From assembly GCA_030710605.1 (NCBI GenBank), contig CP092882.1:18548446-18612445 (forward strand): a stretch of DNA of 64,000 bases, written 5' to 3'. Positions 1 to 31,146 of the stretch are shown one piece after another. The notes below the pieces were generated by a model. The model was not told the origin of the DNA. It did no database searches and was given only the letters and a program-made list of their open reading frames with translations. Position numbers and translations under genes: made by a program. The stretch's first letter is position 1, and every line of letters starts with the position of its first letter. The DNA comes from Cordylochernes scorpioides. Taxonomy: Eukaryota; Arthropoda; Arachnida; Pseudoscorpiones; Chernetidae.

Positions 1-240
1 GGAATAAGCAAAAAAAAAAAAAAGACCAAATCCAAATAAATAAATAGTGTGTGACGTTTAAGTAACAACGTTGTTATCATCTTCAGACAAAAGTTCTGAA
101 TGAGGTCCATTGAAGTCTATAAAAATGACAAGGCACAATTTGGATTATAGATTATAAACACAAGGTAATAAAACCAAATCCAAATAAATATATAGTGTGT
201 GACATTTTGGTAACAGCGTTGTTACCATCTTCAGCACTTT
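1..240. repeat. Two degenerate family 1 arms
   Basis: Two same-direction half elements with decayed minus-strand cores at 53-86 and 201-234. The first bases resemble a SINE tail. Confidence 0.6.
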
Positions 241-295
241 TGTCACTCAGGGACAAAAATAAAGTCTTTGGTGTTGCCGGTCGTCTATTTTTTTT

Positions 296-420
296 AAGGA
301 GACAGAGGCAATTTTGTTCACTCTTGTTTATCTTGTGTGTCTTCAATAAAGGTCACTGTGTATCAAATATCTTTCAAAGTTATTGTATCAATTCCAATAT
401 ACATGGTAAAACATAAAAGT
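296..420. repeat. Unclassified short repeat, 3 copies
   Basis: GGCAATTTTGTTCAC ... TCTTCAATAAAG ... TATCTTTCA blocks shared with 13765-13890 and 60845-60980. The copy at 13765 abuts the Tigger-type transposon. Confidence 0.55.
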
Positions 421-870
421 TTTGTTCCTGAATTTACTTTACATAATGACCATACTCTGACCAATTTTTTTCTGAATCAGGTGCCATATAGTTTATTTTT
501 TTCTTCAAACTATTTTGACAGGAAATCTGATGTTCCCTTAATAATAATTTTTTAAAAAAGGAGTTCCTTTTATTCCCACTTAACCAACCTAGCTGATATA
601 GTGTGTATGGACTAACAAATGGAACGTTATGATGCTATCTTTTGAGTAAATCGCACAATTTTATTTTTTTACATTAATGCAGTTTTCAAATAAAATTACG
701 GTTTAACCTCTTCAATTCAACCCAATAAGGCTATTTTCTTTAATTTAACTAAATATTCTGATCCCTTTGGGTGTTAAAGAAGTTTGACCTATATAAAAAA
801 AATGTAGACTATACAATATATACGAAAATAATATCAATATAATGGTAGATCAACCAGGAGGTTAATTTAA

Positions 871-1240
871 TCTTCTTCTTCTTCTTTCTTATCTCCACTC
901 AATCATATTAGGGTATCAAGCTTGTAGAGCTTGAGACTTGACAACCATCATGACTGGGTGAAGTAGAATGCGTCTGCCTTTGTCATTAAGACTGGGAGCA
1001 CTACTCAGTGGCAAGCCGATTTAGCTCCAATATGAAATGGCCGCCTCTGACATGAGGAACAGACGCCATGTGCAGCCGCTCCTAACATAGAGTACAAACG
1101 CTGCTCATCCTATATCCCTGGATTAGGAGCCCTTACAGGGTACTATCAGCCGGGCCAGCTGAGCCCAGGTTTTTTACCGAGCTTGTTACTGCTCCCCCTC
1201 CTCCTTCATCCGGGCTTGGGACCGGCAAAGGCGGAGTTGG
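871..1240 (-). mobile_element. Miniature LINE-derived element (leader joined to 3' tail)
   Basis: Minus strand starts CTCCGCCTTTGCCGGTCCCA, a leader typical of some non-LTR retrotransposons, and ends TGAGTGGAGATAAGAAAGAA plus GAA repeats, with no coding body. TAATTTAA flanks both sides (863-870, 1242-1249). Confidence 0.65.
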
Positions 1241-1441
1241 GTAATTTAATGAAAATGGTGAGCCAAACCCTCTCATTTAATTTTTCTTTTCTTGTAGTAT
1301 GGTTAGCTGAAGTAGTTTTAACCCTAGGAGCATAGACTTATGGAAATACTATAATCTTTGCACAAGGAGATAAGAAACAATAACAACAGAAGCATTAATA
1401 TATTTTTCAAATGTGTCAAATTTATTGTCTGTGGGGGGCAG

Positions 1442-1524
1442 GCCTGCAAGTCCCTCTGTATGTGGGTACGAGCCATGGACCTCTATGCCAAGGTCTTCAA
1501 GACAGTGGAGCCTAAGAAGAAGAG
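1442..1524 (+). CDS. DNAH6: Dynein heavy chain exon, end of microtubule-binding domain, PLUS strand
   Basis: 83 bp, acceptor ggggcag, donor AGAG|GTGAGT. Encodes ACKSLCMWVRAMDLYAKVFK and VEPKKKR, the invariant helix that returns from the microtubule-binding domain into the second stalk coiled coil. It follows exon 38 in the protein after one missing block of roughly 50-60 residues, but lies on the opposite strand, beyond the 2871-2970 gap. A separate paralogous gene is possible but less economical. Confidence 0.9.
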
Positions 1525-1575
1525 GTGAGTCCTACCTCCTCAGAGATAAGTAAGTCTACATGGGGTCTGGTCTAG

Positions 1576-1813
1576 GCTAGCGGAGGCAGAGGCTGTCTTG
1601 GCCAATGTGATGGAGGAACTGAAGCTGAAGCAGGATTCCCTATCTCGAGTCCAAGCCCAGATTGCCAAGCTAGAGAGCCAATATGCCCAGTCAGTGGCAG
1701 AGTCTGACCAGCTCAAGAAAACCATTGCCCAGACTGCATCCCGGCTCCAGCGATCCTCCAAGTTGACACAGGGCCTGGCTGATGAGCAGGTCCGATGGAA
1801 GGAGCTGGTTGAG
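1576..1813 (+). CDS. DNAH6: Dynein heavy chain exon, stalk second coiled coil (CC2), PLUS strand
   Basis: 238 bp; its first base completes the Arg codon of the preceding exon 52 bp upstream. Encodes LAEAEAVLANVMEELKLKQD, then a long charged helix and GLADEQVRWKELVE, the typical end of CC2 before AAA5. Acceptor tggtctag, donor GTTGAG|GTACGG. The following AAA5 exons are not found between 1813 and 2870. Confidence 0.93.
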
Positions 1814-1889
1814 GTACGGTGGCTCCTTCACTGGGCAAATGGACCGGTCAACATGGTGGTTTAACATACCTTTATTATTATTACTAGTA

Positions 1890-2049
1890 CAGTAGAACTT
1901 CCCTGTAGAGGACATCTAATTGCAGAGCCAAACTGTCCTTTAAGGAGAGGTGTCCTCTTACCGGAGAGTTGCTTAATTGTAAAAATTGTAATTTTGCAAA
2001 TGAAAACTGTCCTTTGTGGAGAGGTGTCTGTTAAAGGGAAGTTCTACTG
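1890..2049. mobile_element. MITE, CAGTAGAACTTCC family
   Basis: 160 bp, inverted ends CAGTAGAACTTCCC / GGGAAGTTCTACTG, TA flanks at 1888-1889 and 2050-2051. Confidence 0.85.
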
Positions 2050-2870
2050 TAGTAGTACTAGTATATATGTAGTAGTGTGAAGTTAGAATTCCTATAATAT
2101 GTTATTTGTATACTAATTTCTGATATGGAATATACAAATTACCCTGTTATCAACCCACTTTATATATTCTAGAGTTGAAACTATGATTCTTTTCAGACCT
2201 ATATTTAGATTGAGTGAACGTTTTATTCCAATAGGTCAAATATTGTGCAATTGTATGCAGAACAAACACTTATTATTTATTTATATAGATTTTTATATTT
2301 TGTCTAAAATTTATCTAGTGCTATTTATCAGCATTGGTTGTGGTGTAGCCTGAGTTCTTTGCTCATAACTGAAATACATTATAGGCCTGTTTTTGTTCAT
2401 CTAGTGGTTCCCTTACAACCTTTTTAAAAATACATATTAGTGACATAGTTCAAATTTAGATAGATATGTGGGGGATTGGTGTGGCTTGTGGATAGGCCAC
2501 TGATTAAAATAAAATTATTTTTTATAATATAAATTAATTTATTTTATATCTCAAAATAAAGGGAGGAAGGAAACAATGGCCGCTGGGAGAAAGCCTTGTT
2601 GTTCGACAGCGCACGTGCAAAGAGTCTGGGATGCTGGCCGCCGCATGCATAATGAGGTGTTCAAACAATGCGCGTGCCAAGCATCCTGGATGTCACGCGC
2701 TGGTGTTCTCTAACTCACATGCTGGCTGAGACATGGTGTGGCGGCCCACACTACACCTCAGCCAGTAGGATCCTTAGATTTCCTATGTGGACGTAGAAAG
2801 AACTCTTGACTGACTACGTGTTGGTCTGGTGTCTTGTTGGGTTGGTGTCTGGTCCTTGGTTGTTGAGAAA

Positions 2871-3270: not shown

Positions 3271-3634
3271 TATACTTTTTAAACAACAATATTGGACAAT
3301 TTTGAACAGGGATTCATATAATAATTATTATTTTTTAATCTCAAAACAATTTCCTACTGGAATGAGAAAAATAATTGATAGACCTGGCTTATTAATGGTG
3401 AACCCTCCCAGCAGTTTCACTGCTCTACTATTGTATTGACCTGATATGCTTATGTAGCTGGTAATGCCACACTTGAATGGTTTACTTGATTGAAGTCTAG
3501 TTGTTACTTTATTATTCTTCAAACCCCAGATTGTACTTCAGTAAAACCTCCCCGCAGGACCATGTCCCTTGTAAAATGACTAGACCCAACCACTTCAAAT
3601 GAATGACTGCTTTCAGGAGTTATATATATTTTTC

Positions 3635-13898: not shown

Positions 13899-16403
13899 CA
13901 GTAGAACTCCTCAAAAAAAAAAAATCGGAAATTCTGAAATTCGGAAACTCCCAAATTCGGAAAGTATTGTAATGTTTTTTTTACATACAAAAAATCAATT
14001 TTCACATGCTTTTATTTTGTTGATATTTCAACATTATTTTATTTTATTTTATTTACTTTTACTTTTGCTTTGCTTTTATTTTATTTAATTTAATTTTTAT
14101 TAGTAATTTATTTTTTATTTAAGTGTTTAATTAATTTACTTTTACCGATTATTTATAATTGCTAATTAGGGGTTTATCCCCTTTTTTTAAAGCTTAAATA
14201 AATCAACAGTTTCATTTGACCTTTGTGCTTAGTTTAGGATATTGTCCAATAAGAAGGCAGCATTATTATGTCATAAGCCATTCACGCATTTTTTATTGCA
14301 AAGTTGATTCACCTAAAGTTCAAATTATCAAACATTTTCAGACATTGTAAGTTTCAAATTCTTTTATTCAACTCTCAATTTTTTGCATTTACAAGTTTGT
14401 TCTTCAACAAAATGGCATCCAAAGAGGAGCGGCAAAAACGAGGCAAGTACCGAATTCTTAAGCTTGGTGAAAAGTTAGATGTTCTTAGTGACATTAAAAA
14501 AGGATTAAGCTATACAACGATAATGCAAAAGAATAAAATTTCTAAGACAACTGTTTATGATATAAAAAAGTCTGAGCTTAAACTTACAAAGTTTGTTGAT
14601 TCTACCGAAAAAGATGTCAAAAAGTTTTCTCAAGTAAAAAATCCGTTATACGAAAATGTTGATAAAGCAGTTAACATCTGGTACGAAAGTCAGAGATTAT
14701 CAGGGGTTCCTATTCGTGGTATTGAACTCCAAACAGCTGCCAGTCATTTTGCATCAAAATTGAATAATCCCACTTTTAAAGCTAGTGGTGGATGGTTGTC
14801 ACGATACAGAGCCAGACATAATTTGAAAAATAAAAAAGTTGTCGGGGAAGCATTGAGTGCTGACGAAGATGCAGCTAATCACTTTAAAGATGATTTTCAC
14901 AAACTAATGACTGACGAAAAGTATGAACAGTTCCAAATTTATAATGCTGACGAAACAGGAGTTTACTGGAAGTCATTACCCGATAATTCTCAAGTCAAAA
15001 ATGCAAACAGCGCTAGTGGTCATAAGCAATCCAAAGATCGACTCTCTGTTTTACTTTGTGCAAATGCAGACGCTTCACATAAAAATGTTTTGGCTGTTGT
15101 TGGAAAATCAAAACGTCCAAGAGCAATCAAAAACATCATTGATCGATTGCCTGTCCATTACTATTCTTCACACAAGGCTTGGTTTAATCAAAGCATTTTT
15201 AGTGAATGGTTTTTTAAACGGTTCATAAACGAAGTTCGCAATTTTCAAGAAAATAAGTTAAGAGTTGCTCCAGATCAAGTAAAAGCGTTACTACTAGTTG
15301 ACAATTCTCCTGCTCATCCAACAGAGCGGATCAGTAATGACGGCAACATTAAATGCAAGTTTTTACCACCTAATACAACATCTGTATTGCAGCCTATGGA
15401 CCAGGGAGTTATTGTTGCCTTTAAAAGGTTGTATAAACGAAGACAGTTAGAAAGTTGTTTAGTATTTTCAAGTGATGCAGATCAGCCAAATAACTCTGTG
15501 GGTGAACAAACTTTTTCTAATTTAAAAAAGTACGACATCAAGAAAGCGATATTCAATTTTGGAAATTCTTGGGATGAATTAAAATCTTCTACAATAAGAA
15601 ATGGATGGAAGATTTTGCTTGAACACAAAAATAATTCAGATTTGGAAACAGCAGGTGATGCATTACAATTATCCGAGGATGAATCTGATGAAGATGAACA
15701 AGAAATTAGATGGCTGGAGCAATTATTTCAAAGAGCTAGAATTGAAGTAAATCAAGAAAGCATTAATGAATGGATCGATATAGACCTGGATGATCCAGGT
15801 CACAATGTTCTTAGCAATGATGATATAGTTGAAGCTGTTTTGAGTGAAAAAATGAAAATCAGCAGTTCTGATGATAGTTCCTCAACTTCTGAAGACAGTT
15901 TGGAGCCGGATTTTCCCAGATGCGAAGCGTTGAAAAGTTTGGATGTTGCATTAAAATATTTGGAAAAGCGCACTGAACCAGAAATGCTTGCAAGCTACAA
16001 CACCATCAATAGTCTTCGAACTATGCTTATGAGAGAAGAAGAAGCTTTGTTAAACAAGCCAAAGAAACAGACAACAATCAGCAACTTCTTTGCCAAGCCA
16101 TAACTTACTTGGCCATCAATTGCATTACATACATAATAAAATATTTTACTATTTTTCATCGGTTTCATGCTCAAAACTCATAAAAGTCAAGGAACATTTG
16201 ATTAAAAATCGTAATTAAAATTATGTAATGTACATATAATATTCAACCTAAAATTGTTCATATGCTTCAAAATCTTTGTCTCAGTCATCTAAATGCCTAT
16301 TTATGCCACATAAATATTCACAAATCTAACTCTCAAATTGAGAAAATCCTCAAATTCGGTAAACCTTGCGCCCCAAGCTTTCCGAATTTGAGGAGTTCTA
16401 CTG
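13899..16403 (+). mobile_element. Full-length pogo/Tigger-type DNA transposon
   Basis: 2,505-bp element in a dynein intron, opposite in orientation to the gene. Ends are inverted: left CAGTAGAACTCCTCAAA, right its reverse complement closing at 16403. It is flanked by TA at 13897-13898 and 16404-16405, the target duplication expected for the Tc1/mariner superfamily. Short subterminal motifs (TTCGGAAA) recur inside both ends. It carries one intact transposase gene. Inserted next to a short diverged repeat also found near 300-410 and 60840-60980. Confidence 0.93.
14412..16103 (+). CDS. pogo/Tigger-type transposase (CENP-B/jerky-like), intact
   Basis: 563 codons without a stop or frameshift. The open frame starts at 14304, but the Met at 14412 (acaaaATGg) is preferred, because the earlier 36 residues are hydrophobic and unlike the family, and MASKEERQKRGKYRILKLGE starts the DNA-binding domain. 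Layout: helix-turn-helix about residues 15-60, second CENP-B-type helix-turn-helix about 85-155 (GGWLSRYRARHNL), DDE/D catalytic core with Asp180 (NADETG), Asp297 (LLLVDNSPAHP) and Asp330 (LQPMDQGVI), 32 residues between the last two as in Tigger elements. The C-terminal 150 residues are strongly acidic and end in QTTISNFF, a PCNA-interaction (PIP-box) pattern. Works by cut-and-paste at TA. Codon use is AT-rich, unlike the dynein exons. Completeness suggests a recent insertion. Confidence 0.95.
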   Translation: MASKEERQKRGKYRILKLGEKLDVLSDIKKGLSYTTIMQKNKISKTTVYDIKKSELKLTKFVDSTEKDVKKFSQVKNPLYENVDKAVNIWYESQRLSGVPIRGIELQTAASHFASKLNNPTFKASGGWLSRYRARHNLKNKKVVGEALSADEDAANHFKDDFHKLMTDEKYEQFQIYNADETGVYWKSLPDNSQVKNANSASGHKQSKDRLSVLLCANADASHKNVLAVVGKSKRPRAIKNIIDRLPVHYYSSHKAWFNQSIFSEWFFKRFINEVRNFQENKLRVAPDQVKALLLVDNSPAHPTERISNDGNIKCKFLPPNTTSVLQPMDQGVIVAFKRLYKRRQLESCLVFSSDADQPNNSVGEQTFSNLKKYDIKKAIFNFGNSWDELKSSTIRNGWKILLEHKNNSDLETAGDALQLSEDESDEDEQEIRWLEQLFQRARIEVNQESINEWIDIDLDDPGHNVLSNDDIVEAVLSEKMKISSSDDSSSTSEDSLEPDFPRCEALKSLDVALKYLEKRTEPEMLASYNTINSLRTMLMREEEALLNKPKKQTTISNFFAKP

Positions 16404-17568: not shown

Positions 17569-17840
17569 CTTGAAGAGGATTCCATCCTTGGCCAGGAACT
17601 TGGGCATGTTGGAGTCATGGAGGGCCCTCAGGATGACAATGTCCTCTGGTTTGTCTGGGTTCTCCCTCTTGAGAGAGCCGGCCATGACCAGCACAGACTT
17701 GAGGGCCCTCATGCCAAAGTCATAGTGGTCCTGCTGGCTGAGCTGCTCCGAGCACAGCTTGTACATCTGAGTCATCTTGTGGGCTAGGGACTTGCTGGAC
17801 TCAAAGCCCTCCGAGTACAGCACCACCTCTGCTATCAGGG
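17569..17840 (-). CDS. DNAH6: Dynein heavy chain exon 25 (AAA1 to AAA2)
   Basis: 272 bp encoding LIAEVVLYSEGFESSKSLAH, then QLSQQDHYDFGMRALKSVLV and a AAA1/AAA2 linker. Acceptor tctccag, donor TTCAAG|GTACCC; phase 1 in, 0 out. Its acceptor and first 46 bases are the seed copy of the tandem array that extends to about 20370; transcription meets all the extra acceptors before this genuine one. Confidence 0.95.
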
Positions 17841-20370
17841 CTGGAGACACACTAGTGATTTGTAGATGGGAAGGTAATGCTTCTATAGAAGTACAAGTTC
17901 TCTATTGCAATAGAAACATAGGAGAACCAGGACACTGTACCAGAGAGTCATTAGATTTAAATTCTTGTAAGAGACATCTGGACTCAAAGCCCTCCGAGTA
18001 CAGCACCACCTCTGCTATCAGGGCTGGAGACACACTAGTGATTTAGTGAAGTACGAGTTCTCTATTGCAATAGAAACATAGGAGAACCAGGACACTGTAC
18101 CAGAGTCATTAGATTTAAACTCTTGTAAGAGACACCTGGACTCAAAGCCCTCCGAGTACAGCACCACCTCTGCTATCAGGGCTGGAGACACACTAGTGAT
18201 TTAGTGAAGTACGAGTTCTCTATTGCAATAGAAACATAGGAGAACCAGGACACTGTACCAGAGTCATTAGATTTAAACTCTTGTAAGAGACACCTGGACT
18301 CAAAGCCCTCCGAGTACAGCACCACCTCTGCTATCAGGGCTGGAGACACACTAGTGATTTAGTGAAGTACGAGTTCTCTATTGCAATAGAAACATAGGAG
18401 AACCAGGACACTGTACCAGAGTCATTAGATTTAAACTCTTGTAAGAGACACCTGGACTCAAAGCCCTCCGAGTACAGCACCACCTCTGCTATCAGGGCTG
18501 GAGACACACTAGTGATTTAGTGAAGTACGAGTTCTCTATTGCAATAGAAACATAGGAGAACCAGGACACTGTACCAGAGTCATTAGATTTAAACTCTTGT
18601 AAGAGACACCTGGACTCAAAGCCCTCCGAGTACAGCACCACCTCTGCTATCAGGGCTGGAGACACACTAGTGATTTAGTGAAGTACGAGTTCTCTATTGC
18701 AATAGAAACATAGGAGAACCAGGACACTGTACAAGAGAGTCCTTAGATTTAAACTCTTGTAAGAGACACCTGGACTCAAAGCCCTCCGAGTACAGCACCA
18801 CCTCTGCTATCAGGGCTGGAGACACACTAGTGATTTAGTGAAGTACGAGTTCTCTATTGCAATAGAAACATAGGAGAACCAGGACACTGTACCAGAGTCA
18901 TTAGATTTAAACTCTTGTAAGAGACACCTGGACTCAAAGCCCTCCGAGTACAGCACCACCTCTGCTATCAGGGCTGGAGACACACTAGTGATTTAGTGAA
19001 GTACGAGTTCTCTATTGCAATAGAAACATAGGAGAACCAGGACACTGTACAAGAGAGTCCTTAGATTTAAACTCTTGTAAGAGACACCTGGACTCAAAGC
19101 CCTCCGAGTACAGCACCACCTCTGCTATCAGGGCTGGAGACACACAAGTGATTTAGTGAAGTACGAGTTCTCTATTGCAATAGAAACATAGGAGAACCAG
19201 GACACTGTACCAGAGTCATTAGATTTAACCTCTTGTAAGAGACACCTGGACTCAAAGCCCTCCGAGTACAGCACCACCTCTGCTATCAGGGCTGGAGACA
19301 CACAAGTGATTTAGTGAAGTACGAGTTCTCTATAGCAATAGAAACATAGGAGAACCAGGACACTGTACCAGAGTCATTAGATTTAAACTCTTGTAAGAGA
19401 CACCTGGACTCAAAGCCCTCCGAGTACAGCACCACCTCTGCTATCAGGGCTGGAGACACACTAGTGATTTAGTGAAGTACGAGTTCTCTATTGCAATAGA
19501 AACATAGGAGAACCAGGACACTGTACCAGAGTCATTAGATTTAAACTCTTGTAAGAGACACCTGGACTCAAAGCCCTCCGAGTACAGCACCACCTCTGCT
19601 ATCAGGGCTGGAGACACACTAGTGATTTAGTGAAGTACGAGTTCTCTATTGCAATAGAAACATAGGAGAACCAGGACACTGTACCAGAGTCATTAGATTT
19701 AAACTCTTGTAAGAGACACCTGGACTCAAAGCCCTCCGAGTACAGCACCACCTCTGCTATCAGGGCTGGAGACACACTAGTGATTTAGTGAAGTACGAGT
19801 TCTCTATTGCAATAGAAACATAGGAGAACCAGGACACTGTACCAGAGTCATTAGATTTAAACTCTTGTAAGAGACACCTGGACTCAAAGCCCTCCGAGTA
19901 CAGCACCACCTCTGCTATCAGGGCTGGAGACACACTAGTGATTTAGTGAAGTACGAGTTCTCTATTGCAATAGAAACATAGGAGAACCAGGACACTGTAC
20001 CAGAGTCATTAGATTTAACCTCTTGTAAGAGACATCTGGACTCAAAGCCCTCCGAGTACAGCACCACCTCTGCTATCAGGGCTGGAGACACACTAGTGAT
20101 TTAGTGAAGTACGAGTTCTCTATTGCAATAGAAACATAGGAGAACCAGGACACTGTACAAGAGTCATTAGATTTAAACTCTTGTAAGAGACATCTGGACT
20201 CAAAGCCCTCCAAGTAAAGCATCAACACTGCTATTAGGATTGGAGACACACAAGTGATTTGCAAATGTTTAAAAATGGGAAGGTGATGCCTCTAAAGAAG
20301 TATGAGTTCTCTATTACAATAGAAACATAGGAAAACCAGGGCACAAGTATCGTTAGATTTAAACCCTTGA
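17797..20370. repeat. 158-bp tandem array seeded by dynein exon 25 acceptor
   Basis: About 16 units counting the exon itself. The marker ctcaaagccc recurs at 17801, 17983, 18141, 18299, 18457, 18615, 18775, 18933, 19093, 19251, 19409, 19567, 19725, 19883, 20041 and 20199; spacing is 158 bp (twice 160, first 182). Each unit holds, on the minus strand, intron sequence, the acceptor ctccag and the first 46 nt of exon 25. Inner units are nearly identical; the outermost right unit (20199) is clearly diverged, as expected for unequal exchange homogenising the centre. Confidence 0.97.
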
Positions 20371-20374
20371 CAGC

Positions 20375-21130
20375 AGTAATTGAATACACAGTTGATTTGG
20401 ACATTACTACAGCATGTACTACAGTCGCATACTAAAATTGATAATACCTTTAGTAATAAAGACAAATTTGGACATTAATTAACTTCATGAATTCAAAGTT
20501 GCCTCAGACTGAGAAGACAATGATCCAAAGCCACCTTCAAATGGGCTAAATCCTTTCTATAGTCAGTGTGGGGGGAAAGTTTACTGAATCAAATCTAAAA
20601 GTTTGAAGAAACACTTTAAATTAATATTGATTTTATTCAACTTATCAAGTGTTTTTCAGGGACTGGAAACAAATTTTAAATTATTGAGAGATTCAAATTA
20701 ACGAGTTTAAAATTATCGAGAGTCGCCTATATTAATATAAATTTAATTTTCCATCTATTGATTTAAAAAATATTGTAATAATTATTTTTGGAACAAAGTT
20801 CCCCCCACTGTTACATAAATCATCAAATATTAAATCTCCAGACCGGTCTACTTTAAAAGGAGTGAATTATTTATTTCAATATCAAGCCTGTGGCTGAAAG
20901 GCAAAATATAAACTCAATTATCAGTAGTCCCAATTAATGCATGTTGTTTTTGTATAAATAGGTAACTTTTTTTAAAAGGAACTATTTTTTTAACACACAA
21001 CTAGCATATTGGTACTGCTGATTAATTGGGACCAATTTTGCTTTCCCAAAGAATCCCATTTAATGTAAATTATTTATATTTGAAAGGAAGATGTGTTTTT
21101 CTTTCCACACAATAAATAGTAAATTATATG
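20375..21130. other. Intron sequence, nothing recognised
   Basis: AT-rich, between the tandem array and a LINE miniature; no coding or structured repeat seen. Confidence 0.6.
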
Positions 21131-21146
21131 AAAATAGTACAAAAGT

Positions 21147-21367
21147 CTTCTTCTTCTTTCTTATCTCCACACTGGGTGAAGAAGAATGTGTCTGCTTTTG
21201 TCATTAAGACTGGGAGCACTACTCAGTGGCAGGCTGACTTAGCTCCAAAATAAATGGCCGCCTCTGACATGAGGAACAGACGCCATGTGCAGCCGCTCCT
21301 AACATGGAGTACAAACGCTGCTCATCCTGTATCCCTGGAGCCCTTATAGGGTACTATCAGCCGGGCC
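21147..21367 (-). mobile_element. Miniature LINE-derived element, 5'-truncated
   Basis: Same family; AGTACAAAAGT duplicated at 21136-21146 and 21368-21378. Confidence 0.7.
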
Positions 21368-21619
21368 AGTACAAAAGTGAATTTTTTTACTGTGATCAAG
21401 TTGTTGAAATAAGAGAAAGGCATCTTCTGATTGTTCAACTGAGAGTAGATGATGGCTTGCTCCCTCTGTTTGAATAAATTATCTGAAATAATAAAAATTC
21501 AACAATTAGTTGATATTTATTTCGACGGATGGTACAAACCATCAGCAACTTTTAGTTGCATGATCAGGGAATGCCTTTCTCTTAATAAATGGTTATTATA
21601 GAAAAATAAAACAGAGATT

Positions 21620-21815
21620 GAAGAGGAGATTCTTGTGCGATTTTTTTTTTTTTTTTTAATAGCAAGCTTTCGGACGCATGCGTCCTTCTACTGGCTTTTT
21701 TACGAACGTAAAAATGAACGAAAGGTCGTAAAAAAAGCCTGTAGAAGGACGCATGCATCCAAAAGCTTGCTATTAAAAAAAAAAAAAAAATTTGCACAAG
21801 AAACTCCTCTTCAAT
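21620..21815. repeat. Inverted repeat with degenerate hammerhead-like arms (family 4)
   Basis: Arms include a self-complementary GGACGCATGCGTCC followed by GAAAGCTTGC (minus strand, 21662-21695); the right arm has AAAAGC. The upstream block CAGTAGA is a poor match to CUGANGA. Ends in A/T runs. Confidence 0.5.
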
Positions 21816-22158
21816 TTCCGTTTTATTTTTCTATTTTAACTCAAAGAGTTTATTTTAGTCAAATGGTTATTATGTTCGAGCAAAAAAATTTCTCTATACA
21901 GCTACTGTATCACTTTTTTTGTTGTTTAAAAGAGAGGTATTATAAAAATAAACAGTATACTTCAATTTAACGAACTCTAATTCAACACAATCCACTCCTT
22001 TTTCTCAAATCCCACATCCAGGATTCCTACTTTATAATTGACAATAATTCAACACAGACCTAAATTCAACATCTCAAGGGGAGTTGAAGTAAAATAGGTT
22101 TTGCTCTATATAATGCTTGTGTTAACATAAAAGCTTAAGTGAGGTAACCAGTACTTAC

Positions 22159-22312
22159 TGTAGTCTGGCACCATCATGGAGACTGGTCTGAAGAGAGCCT
22201 TGAGATTGTCAGGCAGCTCTGTACGCCCGGCGTAGCCTGGGTTCATGGTGATGAAGGCAGCGCAGGATGGAATGAGGCGAATCTCCCGCCCCTCAAATAT
22301 GAAACGCTTGGC
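22159..22312 (-). CDS. DNAH6: Dynein heavy chain exon 24 (AAA1)
   Basis: 154 bp encoding [20 protein letters not shown], then [20 protein letters not shown], the sensor region of AAA1 with the invariant [11 protein letters not shown]. Leaves one base, completed by exon 25. Acceptor tgtgtag, donor TACA|GTAAGT. The following intron contains the exon-derived 158-bp tandem array. Confidence 0.96.
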
Positions 22313-22550: not shown

Positions 22551-22712
22551 TAAAACACAAGGTAATAAGACTAAATCCAAATAAATAAATAGTGTGTGAC
22601 GTTTCGGTAACAGCGTTGTTACCATCTTCAATGTTACACACTATTTATTTATTTGGATTTGGTCTTATTACCTTGTGTTTATAATCTATAATTCAAATTG
22701 TGCCTTATCAAA
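22551..22712. repeat. Palindromic repeat, family 1, loop deleted
   Basis: Arms CACAAGGTAATAAGAC... and its inverse meet shortly after the core (minus-strand core 22598-22630 starts TTGAAGA, one base off). Confidence 0.75.
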
Positions 22713-29677: not shown

Positions 29678-31146
29678 TTTTACGTGACAACGGTAGAATA
29701 TTTATTGATATGAATATAATTAAATTGCACAATAGGAACAAGGAATTGAATGAAAATAAGAATTGCACAAATTTTAACTATAGAAATATATTTTGTTTAC
29801 TAAAACATTGTACATGTAAACTTAAACTTAACTAATTCCTATTTGAGTGATTTTGTTGAGGATAGGACGATGATAGGAGAAATATGAAATGAAAGGAAGT
29901 GTTTCTGCTGTAATGTGTCTTGCGAAAGTCAAGTCGATAGTTGTTCCTTTTAACGTAGTTGACTTAGAAACGTTTGATACGCAATCAAGATTATACGTAT
30001 TTTTCATGAATTTAAGAAACGAGTTGTCAGGCTTTACGTTTTTGTTAAAATCACCAGACAGAAGAATCGGTATACTAGAATCAACTTGCACGAACGGTGG
30101 CACGTACTGGCTGTTGTGAATGTACGGACCGAGTCCTTGCCATAGTAACATTCCAATATCCTGCATACTAGCTCCTGGATGAATATATACAGCACCGAGT
30201 ATAAACTTGAAGCTAGTATTAGCGGCGAAGCAAGTAACTTCAGTCATGCACATGTCACCCTTGGTTTTAATGACACGAGTTACGTCTGTAATCGCAACTT
30301 GGAACACTTCCGCCGTAGATGTCGATGATAATTTACGATAGATCGCCACTCCACCAGCCGCGTTGGTATTTGAAAATCAAAACACTTATTCAGATCGAAG
30401 GTTCAAATTTTTGCTAAATAAATTTGAAATTAAATAAAATTTGTAATTGTAAATGATGAAGTTGAAAATTAAAACATTTACTTAAATTAGATGTTTAAAT
30501 TCTTGCTCAACACAGTTTAAATAAAGTTTTCTTATATCTGCCACTTTTTCTTAATATTTGTAATTTTAAAGAATCAATTCGAAAATCAAAACATTTATTC
30601 AGATCGAAGGTTCAAATTTTTGCTAAATAAATTTGAAACTATTTAAAATTTGTAAAATAATAATTAATTAATTAATTAATTTTAAACTAATAATTTACTT
30701 AACACTATCAACATTTATCAATAGTATGACATAACCTATAAACTCAGTTTCTCAACTTTTGTGTCAATCTAACAATTAATCAATCAATCATAGTTTACGA
30801 TAATGAAATATCAGTGTACAATTATTTACCTTTATTGTTGTAGTTGTTGTAAATGACAAATCTAAGCACTCCACATTTTCACTACAGACACAGCTGACGA
30901 TACTTTAACCACACGTGTGAACTTGTATTATGACGCTTTCTTGTTTTTCCAATGCCAAGAACGTTCGAGAAAGACAAAGACAGAGACAAGCATGCGCCGA
31001 TTCAATGCGCCTAATTCTCTAGCGCTACGCACGCAGCTGCGCGCGCAGCACTCTCGTTCGATGACTCATCGTAACGTTACCGGGCGTTACACTTTTTCAT
31101 AAGTGACTCCCAGCCGCAACCTAATTTAAGACGTTGTCACGTAAAA
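29678..31146 (-). mobile_element. Mobile-element fragment with 15-bp inverted repeats and endonuclease-like ORF
   Basis: TTTTACGTGACAACG at 29678-29692 and its exact reverse complement at 31132-31146 bound a segment with one partial coding region (29828-30360), three copies of a 90-120-bp direct repeat (starting near 30372, 30463, 30581) and a CpG-rich right end (30930-31110). Base composition differs from flanking intron. Class uncertain: Helitron-like or another DNA transposon. Confidence 0.55.
29828..30360 (-). pseudogene. Endonuclease/exonuclease/phosphatase-like domain, N-terminally truncated
   Basis: About 175 codons open. Motifs: GGVAIYRK at the start, ILLSGDFNKNV (the GDFN metal-binding block), STTLKGTTIDLTFAR and FSYFSYHRPIL where the family has the catalytic SDH (here SYH). 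This combination is found in endonuclease domains of non-LTR elements and in proteins linked to Helitron-type helicases; I favour the latter from the wording, without a search. The first third of the domain is missing, so it is a relic or an exon of a longer gene. Confidence 0.55.

Follow-up and report, generated by a model that had tools for sequence, protein, structure and literature searches.

The window analysed here, a stretch of 64,000 nucleotides from the pseudoscorpion Cordylochernes scorpioides, carries part of a dynein heavy chain gene in which an intron holds a tandem array of copies of the start of the following exon. The array lies in contig Z (window 2971-50215), which is flanked by gaps of 100 Ns, and its gene is on the minus strand. 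Exon order and junctions were determined by aligning an uninterrupted 4121-aa dynein frame from C11 of the same genome to 152 kb around the window, a region that includes 9984 N bases. The names exon 24 and exon 25 follow the numbering of a first-pass annotation made from the sequence. The features are as follows.

2871-2970: scaffold gap of 100 Ns between contig Z and contig Y
17569-17840, minus strand: the real exon (exon 25), 272 nt, DNAH6 AAA1 region, donor AAG|gtaccc
17795-17840, minus strand: the copied part of the real exon, its first 46 nt; the terminal AG (offset +46) scores as a possible acceptor
17841-17977, minus strand: native intron end in its long form, including about 25 bp not found in the 158-bp unit
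17841-22158, minus strand: host intron, 4318 nt, phase 1, from spliced alignment (6190 nt in its contig Y counterpart)
17978-18023, minus strand: copy 15, the last decoy exon start, AG intact, then AT instead of GT
18136-20193, minus strand: array core, copies 2 to 14, spaced 158 or 160 bp apart, all carrying an AG and the 46-nt exon start
20194-20239, minus strand: oldest 46-nt exon-start copy, AG lost (CCAA), no GT following
20240-20370, minus strand: left edge of the array, the intronic part of the oldest, decayed copy
22159-22312, minus strand: upstream exon (exon 24), 154 nt, donor ACA|gtaagt, from spliced alignment to the uninterrupted dynein frame, with the reading frame checked

Judged by its matches, the host gene is that of the dynein heavy chain DNAH6. 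With the single 91-aa exon as query, the best PDB match is the DNAH6 chain 8j07_g5 (E 2.8e-46), and the top structure matches (8j07_g5, 9fqr_Xz, and 9d2f_T) are all named DNAH6. The exon, 272 nt long, falls in Pfam AAA_6, i.e., at the AAA1 site, where the first-pass annotation had placed it. It occurs at 100% amino-acid identity in two places in the genome, the next best match being at 59%.

TRF reports the array at 17888-20260 with a period of 158, 15.0 copies, 98% matches, and a score of 4524. Each 158-bp unit is made up of 112 bp of intron end and 46 nt of exon start, the boundary between them being given by the spliced alignment. A direct sequence search in gene orientation finds 16 exon-start copies in contig Z, namely 15 upstream copies and the real exon, which together span window 17795-20239. 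Their 15 successive spacings are 158 bp (twelve times), 160 bp (twice), and 183 bp (once, the last one, before the real exon); the last is longer because about 25 bp of the native intron end are missing from the 158-bp unit. The first-pass annotation had described a 158-bp unit with a 46-nt coding fragment, present in some 15 copies before the true exon, and had given the array's coordinates and a donor at 22159, all of which the sequence search, TRF, and the spliced alignment bear out. Its view of the unit as the end of an intron joined to the start of a real dynein exon likewise holds, since the junction derived from the uninterrupted dynein frame lands at the same place. Its statement that every unit keeps the acceptor AG was too broad: AG is intact in 14 of the 15 upstream copies, the 5'-most of which (20194-20239) reads CCAA. 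A GT directly follows the 46-nt fragment in 12 of 15 copies (core copies 3-14, n=12; copy 2 has AT), and at these 12 of 15 junctions the duplication has created a donor, CAG|GTGTCT. By these signals, most Z units are complete 46-nt candidate decoy exons with an AG and a plausible donor. Many units also contain a perfect palindrome, TCTATTGCAATAGA, about 37 nt 5' of the acceptor (e.g., window 18061-18074), which one substitution disrupts in at least 14 of 36 decoys.

Several other elements were seen in the same gene region. An intron of DNAH6 in contig Z contains an uninterrupted 563-aa transposase with DDE_1 and HTH_Tnp_Tc5 domains (window 14412-16103, plus strand), which we take to be of the Tigger/pogo-like type; a second copy was not found in the 152 kb examined, contig Y included, and the transposase is possibly a recent, polymorphic insertion. 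The introns flanking exon 24 hold two palindromic stretches with long inverted arms (window 21660-21800 and 22560-22690) that look like small non-autonomous DNA transposons, and a 182-aa open frame at window 29828-30376 (minus strand) resembles, by eye, a mobile-element endonuclease domain. Further downstream in the gene region there are two arrays with a 39-bp period, at G000:C20:18468637-18469051 (10.7 copies) and 18486767-18488106 (34.5 copies), neither of which matches its own flanks. None of the other tandem arrays at the examined loci overlaps a called dynein exon, among the 9 of 13 that were compared.

A second copy of the gene segment, with 23 upstream units, is located at G000:C20:18529181-18533057, in a separately assembled contig of 52 kb (contig Y, G000:C20:18498986-18551315) whose right end is window 1-2870. 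The acceptor AG is present in 23 of 23 upstream copies in Y and the GT in 22 of 23; the arrays measure 2.4 kb in Z and 3.7 kb in Y. The 158-bp unit has at least 41 matches, all of them in C20:18.529-18.569 Mb, at the two DNAH6 copies. Errors arise easily in arrays of near-identical units, and the copy number itself may be wrong; one could hence suppose that the array is an assembly artefact, a repeat generated from a consensus or by a collapse error. That the two contigs were assembled separately and differ in unit variants and in copy number (15 against 23), and that the units differ by ordered variants, makes this extremely improbable. The pattern as such is far from anything that chance would produce. 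The first-pass annotation had named a consensus artefact as what would undo its reading, and the different composition of the 23 copies in Y speaks against an array made from a single consensus.

Contig Y is probably the other haplotype, inverted and misplaced by scaffolding, as far as the arrangement of the contigs can tell. The exons of the gene run from contig Z to a further contig, X, on one strand, and Y sits inverted between these two. X and Z abut on Y: against the reverse complement of Y, the second-last base of X falls on base 3377 and the first base of Z on base 3379. Both joints are gaps of 100 Ns. The alternative is a true inverted duplication of DNAH6, in which two paralogous segments each carry their own array. 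The two copies do adjoin in inverted orientation, and they mismatch at 1794 of 37077 aligned bases (4.84%), which is high for alleles; the difference amounts to 80 of 990 bases in the kilobase after exon 25 and to 5 of 226 in the exon body after the first 46 nt. Against a duplication stand the position of both joints at scaffold gaps, the abutment of X and Z on Y, and the fact that the Y copy ends at dynein residue 2951 with no same-strand continuation in the 152 kb examined, whereas X carries the Z copy on to at least residue 3543. Many further dynein loci are also doubled locally: of 20 dynein-exon matches, 14 group into 7 pairs whose members share a chromosome and lie within about 150 kb of each other, the pattern that uncollapsed haplotypes would give. 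We therefore regard a true duplication as quite improbable. If Y is the other haplotype, the array is allelic and length-polymorphic.

Given so many locally doubled dynein loci, duplicated genes of this assembly should be treated with care. For instance, dynein heavy chain single frames of 4121 aa and 3575 aa are found at G000:C11:79288436-79298299 (minus strand) and 79333997-79343863 (plus strand) (loci L020, L021, L038, and L039). These frames are intronless over most of the protein, as if derived from a retrocopy, and the two copies, inverted and about 40 kb apart, may again be two haplotypes. The two-haplotype reading does not fully account for the contig layout at DNAH6 itself, since dynein residues 2978-3053 occur twice on the same strand of contig X (G000:C20:18472044-18472271 and 18490483-18490710).

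The divergence among units bears on the history of the array. In the unit alignment, the unit starts in the intron sequence TGTCTCTTACAAG, which is present in the left flank of the Y array, and ends at base 46 of the exon (GAGTCCAG); the junction between units is CCAG|gTGTCT in most of them and CCAG|aTGTCT in a few. The oldest Z copy differs from the other Z decoys by 17.6%, and 8 of the 14 Z decoys 2-15 are identical. Differences average 0.0099 within Z, 0.0404 within Y, and 0.0339 between the two. Long-form units, with about 25 bp of extra intron, stand at both edges of the Z array and in Y at Y01, Y05, Y06, and Y23. The real exon of Y is preceded by the short, 158-bp form, and its unit shows 2 differences from the internal units Y13 and Y17 and 0.063 per site from the real-exon unit of Z. 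This short form and the likeness to Y13 and Y17 make it most likely that the working Y exon obtained its present acceptor region from the array by exchange. A Leu codon reads CTT in the real exon of Y and CTG in all but one of the 36 decoys of Y and Z.

The first-pass annotation had called the coding fragment almost unchanged among units. It is indeed near-constant, and its constancy is attributed to homogenisation of the array. Variable columns among the 36 decoys number 6 of 46 in the exonic part and 22 of 112 in the intronic part (Fisher p 0.37), and this column test, which has little power, detects no selection or extra constraint on the coding fragment.

To what extent the decoys could be spliced was assessed with a matrix for donors and acceptors derived from 15 DNAH6 junctions, a small and partly inferred set in which a 53-nt intron is doubtful. 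Decoy acceptors with an AG score 8.05-9.97, and most of them equal the real acceptor, whose score of 9.41 corresponds to the 98th percentile of 2868 AGs. The decoy donor CAG|GTGTCT scores 8.69 (98.8th percentile of 2639 GTs) and exceeds 13 of 16 real donors in a leave-one-out comparison; it has neither A at +4 nor G at +5, positions that the small matrix hardly weighs. Because both scores are high, the decoys might be used. The first-pass annotation had supposed that the spliceosome meets some 15 copies before the true exon, and it may do so. Intron definition probably works in this gene, given that it has introns of 52-58 nt in the spliced alignment (the 53-nt one being doubtful), and the 112-nt spacers between decoys would then be spliceable in principle. 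The sequence in front of many DNAH6 acceptors is rich in TG and not in pyrimidines, perhaps a peculiarity of the gene or of the organism.

The consequences of decoy use for the reading frame were computed. Splicing in 1-6 decoy exons before the real exon leads to a stop 28 codons after exon 24, and entry at any of the 15 Z or 23 Y decoys with read-through leads to a stop after 40-115 codons. These early stops, along with the GT donors and the acceptor scores that most decoys share with the real exon, raise the possibility of an array of poison exons, in which frequent decoy use would make array length a dial, whether selected or not, that turns DNAH6 output down proportionally. The decoys show no sign of selection in the column test, however, and 46 nt is a very short exon with a donor lacking G at +5, all of which renders such a dial rather improbable.

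A different outcome is predicted when splicing joins a decoy's GT to the +46 AG inside the real exon. This route yields the normal protein for 12 of the 12 Z decoys with both signals, all nucleotide-identical to the normal mRNA, and for 14 of 22 in Y, none of them nucleotide-identical; among the remaining Y decoys, 7 carry a Ser-to-Leu change and 1 an Ile-to-Val change. In this sense the array is poised for intron gain, as a decoy exon together with the +46 AG would restore the normal protein. It could be, then, that intron gain is under way and that in part of the DNAH6 mRNA a decoy forms a 46-nt exon of its own, its CAG|GTGTCT donor joined to the +46 AG, with an array segment serving as a new intron that splits exon 25 and leaves the protein unchanged. 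The +46 AG is at the 95.9th percentile of AGs in Z and is the best of 28 in Y, a tandem duplication across an intron-exon boundary has produced a real intron in potato (PMC4974935, as far as the accessible text goes), and amphioxus arrays of a similar kind have been proposed by their authors as intron-gain intermediates (PMC3087553, likewise). The +46 AG is, on the other hand, coding sequence, scores 6.98 as compared with 9.41 for the real acceptor, and is outscored in Z by an AG at offset 98 of the exon (8.51); moreover, the 272-nt exon already works without being split. Ongoing intron gain is thus unlikely, and its fullest form, in which the haplotypes differ in how often decoy-to-+46 splicing happens, likewise has only a small chance of being correct.

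The reading that we favour, with good confidence, is that of a minisatellite of the type termed a mirage, present as two alleles, with decoys that are mostly ignored and an effect that is nearly neutral. It builds on what the analysis shows directly, namely the anatomy of the array, the identity of the gene, the two array copies, the divergence patterns, the splice-site scores, and the frame consequences. An ordinary tandem duplication would have placed the exon's first 46 nt next to a site in the preceding intron about 135 nt before the exon; unequal exchange and conversion would later have expanded and contracted the array, so that one haplotype now has 15 upstream copies and the other 23. 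We infer, along with the allelic status of the contigs, that splicing mostly ignores the decoys, since exon definition would prefer an exon of 272 nt to exons of 46 nt whose donor is imperfect. With an exon start in every unit, exchange between a decoy and the real exon would regenerate an intact exon, and array length could change, or even the acceptor region be replaced, as has apparently happened in Y, with no damage to the protein. Some transcripts may perhaps contain decoys and an early stop, the mRNA being otherwise normal.

The locus offers a natural test of splice-site choice: the real acceptor stands behind 14 near-equal acceptors in one copy and 23 in the other, and the two copies probably represent the two haplotypes of a single animal. 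All 22 Y decoys with both signals differ in sequence from the real exon start, which means that the choice made by the spliceosome could be read directly from RNA. The locus is also a case of a coding exon that seems to renew its start and acceptor region in step with a minisatellite, and from this array configuration intron gain would be one splicing choice away.

The closest known system is the mirage of the amphioxus gene BflGb6, which the available text of PMC3087553 describes as repeats of an intron's 3' end and an exon's 5' part in units of 150-160 bp, many of them carrying AG and GT signals, with 6 copies in one haplotype and 3 in another and with concerted evolution among the repeats of the cluster; lancelet PGBD5, Adh, and troponin C have been described likewise (PMC3902484, in the portion available). 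The DNAH6 array resembles the BflGb6 mirage in that its 158-bp unit lies over an intron-exon boundary and its signals are found in many, not all, units (AG in Z and GT in both arrays), and its 15 and 23 upstream copies parallel the mirage haplotypes if Y is the other haplotype. The homogenised core and excluded edges given as a mirage trait are seen here in Z, where the left edge is decayed and the right edge has the long form, and also on the left side of the Y array; unlike in that pattern, the real exon's unit at the right edge of Y resembles core units. The host gene also differs, being a dynein heavy chain here. A search of the genome for the GFP family PF01353, run without a positive control, did not find it. 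Somatic length instability has reportedly been observed for the Adh3 mirage. Regular splicing is undisturbed in mirages, going by the same partial descriptions, and may be so at the DNAH6 array too. The assembly is 2.62 Gb in size here as compared with about 1 Gb diploid for B. floridae, a value derived from figures in the accessible part of PMC12862219. The assembly size and the missing GFP match count, weakly, against a lancelet.

Splice signals are said to be multiplied in one minisatellite study, donor sites there rather than acceptors with exon starts. The DNAH6 array is also similar to intron gain by tandem duplication (the Rogers 1989 model, as outlined in the text available), in which the boundary is crossed, the acceptor comes from the parent intron, and the donor from or next to the exonic segment; in contrast to such cases, where the new intron is used, here the potential is a computed one and the duplication ran on to many copies. 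Genes in human segmental duplications have variable internal tandem repeats at exon-intron boundaries, which in the accessible portion of PMC2812944 are likewise copy-number-variable and able to generate alternative splicing and new introns; unlike the array here, those are units of about 30 bp on average, repeated four times, in human paralogues. The first-pass annotation had considered an exon-seeded minisatellite unusual, and this stands insofar as such arrays are uncommon, but the kind had already been described in amphioxus; the DNAH6 array is an unusually long example of it.
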